A stretch of DNA of 64,000 bases from positions 2,480,001 through 2,544,000 of the forward strand of contig NC_015172.1 of the NCBI RefSeq assembly GCF_000190635.1. Direction: 5' to 3'. Shown in pieces: positions 20,606 to 26,474 of the stretch (position 1 is its first letter; each line of letters starts with the position of its first letter). The notes below the pieces were generated by a model, which worked only from the letters and a program-made list of their open reading frames with translations, was not told the DNA's origin and did not search any database. The translations under genes were made by a program, and so were the position numbers. Origin of the DNA: Syntrophobotulus glycolicus DSM 8271. Its GTDB lineage: Bacteria > Bacillota > Desulfitobacteriia > Desulfitobacteriales > Syntrophobotulaceae.

Positions 20606-21100
20606 TTAGATATGATTTCCCTGAAAGTCGGAAGAAAATAGCAGCTCCTGCTTCTTAAAAAAATCAAACCGGCAGGTAAAACCATTATCCTGAGCAGTCA
20701 GCACAATAGCCGCATTGCTTTCCTCCAGATTCTCATCAGGAAGAATCCGGCTCAGGCATTCTTTAGTATATCCATGAAACTTTTCAGCATACCTTTGCCA
20801 GTTATCCGCCCTGTTGACTTGCCTGTCATACCTCAAAACAAAGCTGGTCTTTACTCCCTTGAAGCGCAGCCCAAAAAGCCAGCCCAGAAGCAAGGCTTGA
20901 AAATGCTTGTCCGGGATTTTATAGGCTTCCTGTTGCGGCTCAAGTTCTTTAACGACAGTATTCATATATTCTATCGCTTTTTCAGGCATGTTCAACTGAA
21001 GATAGCCACGAATGACCTGGAAATTATTCAAAAAATCATGCCGTTGAACTTGAAAGCAGTCCAGCTGCTCTAATAAAATATTTTCTTCCAGTTCAGACAT
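20606..21100 (-). CDS. Spo0B-like sporulation phosphotransferase
   Basis: 164 residues. The N-terminal helical hairpin matches the SPOB_a dimerisation and phospho-accepting domain, with the candidate phosphorylated His at residue 21 in RHDFLNNFQVIRGYLQL. The remainder is a short, poorly conserved domain without ATP-binding boxes, as in Spo0B. In Bacillus, Spo0B carries phosphate between Spo0F and Spo0A and lies between rpmA and obg, exactly the position seen here. The ATG at 21100 has AAGGAG at good spacing; the longer frame crosses a terminator-like hairpin. It could be a general SPOB_a histidine phosphotransferase rather than a true phosphorelay member. Confidence 0.75.
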   Translation of the reverse strand: MSELEENILLEQLDCFQVQRHDFLNNFQVIRGYLQLNMPEKAIEYMNTVVKELEPQQEAYKIPDKHFQALLLGWLFGLRFKGVKTSFVLRYDRQVNRADNWQRYAEKFHGYTKECLSRILPDENLEESNAAIVLTAQDNGFTCRFDFFKKQELLFSSDFQGNHI

Positions 21101-21120
21101 CGCAATTCTCCTTTTCATAC

Positions 21121-21155
21121 ATAAACAAATAAACCCCCGGGTGAAACCCAGGGGT
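21121..21155 (-). terminator. Possible weak terminator or attenuator after rpmA
   Basis: On the minus strand, a 9-bp stem ACCCCTGGG / CCCGGGGGT (one G-T pair) with a 5-base loop, followed by an interrupted T-rich run (TTTATTTGTTTAT). It would reduce read-through from rpmA into the spo0B-like gene. Confidence 0.55.
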
Positions 21156-21167
21156 AAGCTGCAAAAA

Positions 21168-21443
21168 TTATTGAACCTGAGCAACGGGATTCTCCGAATA
21201 AACACTTACTTGCTTTCGGAACTTATCCTTGCGTTCAAACTTAACATAGCCGTCGGCAAGTGCAAAAAGAGTGTCATCAGACCCGATTCCACAGTTCTTG
21301 CCGGGGTGGATCTTGGTCCCGCGTTGTCTGACCAAAATGTTGCCCGCCGTGACGAATTGTCCGTCGGCCCGTTTCACACCAAGACGTTGGGATTCACTGT
21401 CCCGTCCGTTTCTGGTACTTCCCATTCCCTTTTTATGAGCCAT
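21168..21443 (-). CDS. rpmA: 50S ribosomal protein L27
   Basis: 91 residues beginning [20 protein letters not shown], a full L27 reaching the peptidyl transferase centre. The ATG at 21443 is preceded by GGAGGTG. Most Firmicutes L27 proteins carry an N-terminal extension (ending LFA or FFA before HKKG) that is removed by the Prp protease. Here the protein starts directly at the mature AHKKG end, and no prp gene lies between rplU and rpmA. Confidence 0.97.
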
Positions 21444-24717: not shown

Positions 24718-25629
24718 TTACAGCAACTCACCGACCGAACATTTCCATCCCTTCTCCAGCATCCCCTGCATGACCTGAGTCTCGCTCAAGGTCCTTTCCA
24801 CCCTGTCCTTTGAGCCTATGACACTGATCAGGCTGTAGGAATCCATATTCAGCTCATCAATAATGGCGGCTATGGGTGTCGACTTGTTCACCGTCAGGCA
24901 CCTGCTTCGCATTAATCCCCTGCTGAGAAGCTGTTCTTTTTTTCTGCAAAGATTTTTCAGAAAAACGATCCTGGCATTGGCCAATTCCCTATTGCTGCCG
25001 ATCCAAAAGAAAAATCCCAGCACGATAATGGTATACGGATTAAAAAAATAGAAAAACCGGGCCTGTAAATAAAAACCCATGAAAATCATGACCCCGCCGA
25101 GAACCTTCCCCATATAGGCCAGTCCTTTGCTGATCCTGACAAAGCCGAACCGATCCGCCAGAAAAGCCCTGACCATTCTTCCTCCATCCAGCGGCAGCAC
25201 AGGAATCAGATTAAATAATCCCAGCCATAAATTAATTTGTACAAATTCCAAAGCCCATCTGCCTTCAAAAATACCGTTCATCCTCAAAGCCTGACCCGCA
25301 ATGAACAGAGCGATATTGAGAGCGGGGCCGGCCAGGGCGATCACTGCCTCTTCAAGCTTGCGCCCTTCAAACGTATTTTCCATCACCGCCGTTCCCCCAT
25401 ACGGATAAAGGATGACCCCCTGAACCTTAATCCCATATCCTTTTGCCGCAAGAATATGCATGGTATCATGAAGCAAAACCAGTATAAAGATGAGAAGGAC
25501 CTTTGCGGCCATCCCTAATATCGCACAAATCAGCATCAGCACCAGAAAAGAAGGATGCACCTTGAAGGAAATCCCCCCGATCTCGATTCCTCTAGACAAA
25601 ACGCTATTTTTCCAGGCTTTCTTCATCAT
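24718..25629 (-). CDS. spoIVFB: SpoIVFB-like M50 intramembrane metalloprotease with altered active site
   Basis: 303 residues. It has several membrane segments, the second M50 motif NLIPVLPLDGGRMVRAF, and a C-terminal CBS-like domain, as in SpoIVFB, which cleaves pro-sigma K at the forespore membrane. The first zinc motif reads HDTMH at residues 54-58 (25456-25470) instead of HExxH, so the catalytic Glu is replaced by Asp. The codon reads GAT clearly and the frame is intact. It follows spoIVFA by about 22 bases, supporting the SpoIVFB assignment. Confidence 0.85.
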   Translation of the reverse strand: MMKKAWKNSVLSRGIEIGGISFKVHPSFLVLMLICAILGMAAKVLLIFILVLLHDTMHILAAKGYGIKVQGVILYPYGGTAVMENTFEGRKLEEAVIALAGPALNIALFIAGQALRMNGIFEGRWALEFVQINLWLGLFNLIPVLPLDGGRMVRAFLADRFGFVRISKGLAYMGKVLGGVMIFMGFYLQARFFYFFNPYTIIVLGFFFWIGSNRELANARIVFLKNLCRKKEQLLSRGLMRSRCLTVNKSTPIAAIIDELNMDSYSLISVIGSKDRVERTLSETQVMQGMLEKGWKCSVGELL

Positions 25630-25651: not shown

Positions 25652-26407
25652 TTAATTTTGGATGAGGTATGGAACAGGATTGACAGCCTTGCCGTCTTTG
25701 CTCAGTTCAAAATAAAGCCAGGGCTGTTTCCTGGGAGCGGACACCCCGACAGTCCCGATTTTTTTGCCTGATGATACAGGGTCCCCTTTCCTGACCGCTA
25801 CATCGCCTAAATTGCCCAATACCCCGATCCAGCCTTCTCCGAAATTGATATACACCGTATTCCCGCTCAGACTGTTGTTCTCAATGTCCACGACGATCCC
25901 CTCATGAGGACAGAGAACTACGGTGCCTAAAGAGCTCTGAATTTCTATCCCCTTGCTCTTTTGATTATCATAACCTAATCCCTGAAATTCCACCTTGATC
26001 ACACCCGCTACCGGCGGATAAAATTGCTGGTTTACGGCCTTATTCACTTGAATGCTTTCTGCCGGACTGAGGCCTACGGCATCTCTTGCCATATTATTGA
26101 GAGAGGAATACACATTGCCGCTTTCCATGGCGGTCTCATAGGCACTGTAGACCGACCTGGAAATCAGATCGGTGCCATTGGAGCTGAATATTACTGTTAG
26201 AAATAACAGGGCAGAAAGCAGGACTCTCTTTTGACTGCCGGACCAATTGACCAAAATATCTTTTTTGCCTCGTTTTTTTGTTTGGAAAGAACTCTTTTTG
26301 AACAAATTTTCCGGTTCGAAGAAGCCGGAATTGTCCCTGTGGGTTTTGCCGATTTCATGAGCTGCTTTTTCCCATTCCCAATCATCCCATCTTTCCAGCG
26401 GGTTCAT
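25652..26407 (-). CDS. spoIVFA: SpoIVFA-like protein with degenerate LytM/M23 domain
   Basis: 251 residues. It has a long charged cytoplasmic N-terminus (WDDWEWEKAAHEIGK), one membrane segment near 70-85 (RVLLSALLFLTVIFSS) and an outside LytM-like domain (GTVVLCPHEGIVVDIE; WLYFELSKDGKAVNPVPYL). Key zinc ligands of active M23 peptidases appear to be missing, as in SpoIVFA, which anchors and inhibits SpoIVFB in sigma-K activation. The ATG at 26407 has AGGAG 8 bases upstream. It is directly upstream of spoIVFB. Confidence 0.85.
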   Translation of the reverse strand: MNPLERWDDWEWEKAAHEIGKTHRDNSGFFEPENLFKKSSFQTKKRGKKDILVNWSGSQKRVLLSALLFLTVIFSSNGTDLISRSVYSAYETAMESGNVYSSLNNMARDAVGLSPAESIQVNKAVNQQFYPPVAGVIKVEFQGLGYDNQKSKGIEIQSSLGTVVLCPHEGIVVDIENNSLSGNTVYINFGEGWIGVLGNLGDVAVRKGDPVSSGKKIGTVGVSAPRKQPWLYFELSKDGKAVNPVPYLIQN

Positions 26408-26474
26408 TTTCTTCACTCCTCAAATTGCCTGACATGATCTTAAGACAACCTGATAAATGATATGCCCGATAACA

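Follow-up and report, generated by a model that had tools for sequence, protein, structure and literature searches.

The SpoIVFB intramembrane protease of Syntrophobotulus glycolicus DSM 8271, which has the motif HDTMH in place of HExxH, is an otherwise ordinary enzyme with a real but rare and conservative change in its active site, and it is most likely, as judged from comparative sequence evidence, active with aspartate as the general base. The general base of intramembrane metalloproteases is usually taken as invariant, and here its natural swap to Asp has happened at least twice, with signs of loss of function being absent, so that motif scans accepting only HExxH would miscall such enzymes as dead. 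The known biology of sigma-K activation is left unchanged by this finding.

The spoIVFB Gene, Its Motif, and Its Neighborhood

The features discussed here lie in the window, that is, the whole stretch of 64,000 nucleotides that was analyzed, with the exception of sigK, for which genome coordinates are given.

24718–25629, minus strand: spoIVFB, 303 aa, M50B site-2 protease with a C-terminal CBS domain (Pfam, Foldseek, and sequence match)
25456–25470, minus strand: HDTMH, residues 54–58 (CAT GAT ACC ATG CAT), with H54 and H58 as zinc ligands
25465–25467, minus strand: D55, codon GAT, in the position of the catalytic Glu, as read from the sequence
25459–25461, minus strand: M57, the residue preceding the second His of HDTMH
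25186–25188, minus strand: codon of D148 of PLDGGR, the third zinc ligand, intact and invariant in the orthologue alignment
25652–26416, minus strand: SpoIVFA-like partner, 254 aa, with an M23/LytM-type domain (Pfam PF01551, E 6.7e-20), directly upstream of spoIVFB
G000:C1:1952520–1953272: sigK of S. glycolicus, encoding a complete pro-sequence with the cleavage site LVS/Y

The initial annotation had placed HDTMH at residues 54–58, with the Asp codon at 25465–25467, and both the reading and the coordinates proved exact; it had also described PLDGGR and the SpoIVFA partner as intact, which was borne out by the conserved D148 and by the SpoIVFA-like gene directly upstream. The protein contains a Peptidase_M50 domain (Pfam PF02163, E 5.9e-16), and its zinc ligand set, formed by the His pair of HxxxH and the Asp of LDG, is complete (H54, H58, and D148) and invariant in the orthologue alignment, with D55 standing where HExxH has its Glu. 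At the sequence level, the protein matches SpoIVFB and the site-2 protease MJ0392, and its AlphaFold2 model (mean pLDDT 80.9) found as top Foldseek matches the B. subtilis SpoIVFB:pro-sigmaK structures 8vjl (E 1.9e-12) and 8vjm (3.3e-12), over 285 columns, followed by the archaeal site-2 protease 3b4r. From its orthology, its partner, and its substrate, we argue that the S. glycolicus protein is a variant SpoIVFB, in which the Asp is still a carboxylate.

The SpoIVFA-like gene is separated from spoIVFB by a 22-base gap, and the M23 domain of its product, as read from the sequence, lacks the usual zinc ligands, having GIEIQ and LYFEL in their places; such a ligand-less domain would be as expected for SpoIVFA. 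Downstream of spoIVFB lies a radical SAM gene (TIGR03960), and the order spoIVFA/spoIVFB/radical SAM is repeated in the distant relatives L124 and L268–L271. Elsewhere in the window, the ORF at 20606–21205 (minus strand), located between obg and rplU where spo0B is expected, encodes an HDFLNNFQ motif like that around the Spo0B histidine of sporulation phosphotransferases.

Reality, Rarity, and Origins of the Aspartate

A sequencing or assembly error would mean that a real GAA or GAG codon was misread as GAT, for which a single base change suffices, and DSM 8271 is the one strain represented. Against this, the S. glycolicus assembly consists of one contig of 3,406,739 bases, and the genome was finished at 215x (167x Illumina plus 48x 454) and Illumina-polished, with a stated error rate of <1 in 100,000 (PMC3156405), which makes an error at codon 55 unlikely. 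The ORF, moreover, runs without a stop or frameshift, and the change from Glu to Asp was also found independently in three other genomes. We thus consider this explanation of D55 extremely unlikely, and it was dropped because of the finishing quality and the independent recurrence of Asp.

At annotation, an alignment had been suggested to see whether Asp is fixed in related genera; the 29 nearest orthologues all carry Glu. Across the phylum, 175 of the 179 distinct SpoIVFB orthologues have HExxH and 4 have HDxxH; besides S. glycolicus, the carriers are L069, L071, and L124, all with HDFFH and all from one distant genus, g217, whose sample consists of these three species (Asp in 3/3); the genome that carries L124 is complete and 3.6 Mb in size. 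The sister genera of g217 have HEFFH (L271) and HEFSH (L270), and when the motif residue was masked for tree building, two separate changes to Asp were recovered. Since these sister genera keep Glu, Asp arose twice, and the Glu-to-Asp change in SpoIVFB has at least two evolutionary origins.

The Glu form of the motif pattern was present in 102 of the 398 sampled genomes of the phylum. The scan for the Asp form in 84,980 species, which is non-exhaustive because it missed L124 (recovered by the profile search alone), gave 12 loci, only two of which, L069 and L071, belong to site-2 proteases; the remaining ten were rejected as coincidental hits, lying in frames that are unrelated or do not code. 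Our literature search on Asp-form or HDXXH SpoIVFB found no paper reporting the Asp variant. Given such rarity, Asp is not neutral in SpoIVFB, and we count this against the view that the enzyme works. As a separate observation, in G003, a 77% complete genome of the same family as S. glycolicus, pro-sigma-K was found and a SpoIVFB match was absent, probably because of the incompleteness of the genome.

Substrate and Sporulation Context

The initial annotation had asked whether sigma K carries a pro-sequence, and it does: the sigK product of S. glycolicus reads MITELFFVGAALSILKGITLLVS/YINNNAFPQPLS, with a likely TTG start, in agreement with its relatives, and the cleavage site is kept. The pro-sequence and an LVSYI cleavage site are also present in two HDFFH species (L275 of G464 and L276 of G352). 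The unusual motif, taken by itself, could suggest that sigma-K processing is dispensable in S. glycolicus, with sporulation or the pro-sequence having been lost, and it had been proposed that this processing is not needed in the organism. This proposal fails against the retained pro-sequence with its conserved LVS/Y site, the SpoIVB encoded in the genome, and the description of the species as spore-forming (PMC3156405), which leave it a negligible probability; the loss of pro-sigma-K or of sporulation was dropped on account of the pro-sequence and SpoIVB.

Probable Catalytic Competence and Evolutionary Constraint

We regard it as highly probable, from the sequence evidence, that the S. glycolicus protein works as an ordinary SpoIVFB and cleaves pro-sigma-K in sporulation, with Asp55 replacing Glu as the activator of the zinc-bound water. 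In such an enzyme, H54, H58, and D148 would hold the zinc, and the carboxylate of Asp55, one carbon shorter than that of Glu, would still reach the zinc-bound water and act as the general base, with competent catalysis at a rate that is probably somewhat reduced. SpoIVFA, SpoIVB, and presumably BofA would regulate this SpoIVFB as they do in Bacillus.

The general-base position matters, given that the E44Q change abolishes SpoIVFB activity (PMC11486902), E44 being the presumed activator of water (PMC9042235). The earlier statement that a Glu-to-Asp change usually cripples metalloproteases holds for some families, among them aminopeptidase B, where E326D caused a complete loss (PMC2241622), and this fatal outcome favors a pseudo-protease, namely, a SpoIVFB inactivated by Asp55 that is now structural or decaying, while another protease matures sigma-K. 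The same explanation gains from the two other M50 proteins encoded in the S. glycolicus genome, an RseP-like protein with HEAGH and a protein with HEFAH, both with an intact Glu. For SpoIVFB itself the statement seems not to hold, since Yu and Kroos in 2000 reportedly found that the Glu-to-Asp change of HEXXH (E44D) in the B. subtilis enzyme permitted function, and they are said to have named site-2 protease as the one further example in which Asp was known to be tolerated. This reported result speaks against an inactive enzyme, and the sequence evidence points in the same direction, independently of it.

Further arguments against a pseudo-protease come from the retained pro-sigma-K substrate, the conserved zinc ligands, and the evolutionary behavior of the gene. 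Had Asp inactivated the enzyme, its gene should show decay or relaxed constraint; the S. glycolicus SpoIVFB matches 59 of the 62 columns that are invariant in 29 relatives, and its three departures (E>D, A>G, and T>S) are, by the nature of the exchanged residues, all conservative. Its rate is average and without acceleration, the path length to the outgroup family being 2.07 compared with a mean of 2.04 (sd 0.15) in 14 HExxH relatives. In the case of g217, where Asp is of independent origin, the dN/dS of spoIVFB lies at 0.046–0.075, which is not higher than the 0.095–0.102 of comparisons with or between its HExxH sister genera, with dS close to saturation in some of these pairs, nor higher than the 0.07–0.21 of the genes neighboring spoIVFB. 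By this measure, spoIVFB of g217 is under strong purifying selection, which was gauged in g217 only, the S. glycolicus lineage being one genome without a close sister. As for the marks of a metallopseudopeptidase, the ligands and a carboxylate are kept here, and constraint is neither relaxed nor shifted. We therefore hold the pseudo-protease, which had also been suggested at annotation, to be very unlikely; the decay of spoIVFB was dropped in view of the rate comparison and of how few invariant columns are altered.

The Residue Before the Second Histidine

All four Asp SpoIVFBs have Met or Phe before the second His, whereas a bulky residue (F, M, I, L, W, or Y) occupies this position in 5 of the 175 Glu SpoIVFBs. 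This association between the bulky residue and Asp across two origins is no more than suggestive, the pattern having been spotted post hoc and the Asp enzymes amounting to two independent origins. A rather doubtful idea is that natural HDxxH SpoIVFBs work because the bulky residue moves the helix, bringing the shorter Asp within reach of the water; on this view, it would be a second-site change that was permissive for both swaps of the general base. In the g217 lineage, Phe may have preceded Asp, since a sister genus has HEFFH (L271).

Comparison with Known Site-2 Proteases

The S. glycolicus enzyme shares with B. subtilis SpoIVFB (8VJL/8VJM) its fold, the HxxxH and LDG ligands, the CBS domain, the adjacent SpoIVFA, and the pro-sigma-K substrate with its conserved cleavage site; it differs in its general base, Asp instead of Glu, and the two are about 21% identical in the structural alignment. 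The E44D form of the B. subtilis enzyme has the identical change in the identical position, with function reportedly permitted, although it is a laboratory mutant, in contrast to the natural Asp of S. glycolicus and of all three sampled g217 species. The archaeal site-2 protease MJ0392 (3B4R) has the core S2P fold and zinc site in common with the S. glycolicus protein, at 29% identity, but it keeps Glu in its HELGH motif. The HDFFH SpoIVFBs of g217 resemble it in their natural HDxxH, the bulky residue before the second His, and the adjoining SpoIVFA, whereas they are about 30% identical to it and their Asp is, on the tree, of separate origin. The sister genera with HEFFH and HDFFH constitute natural pairs for probing what makes Asp acceptable.
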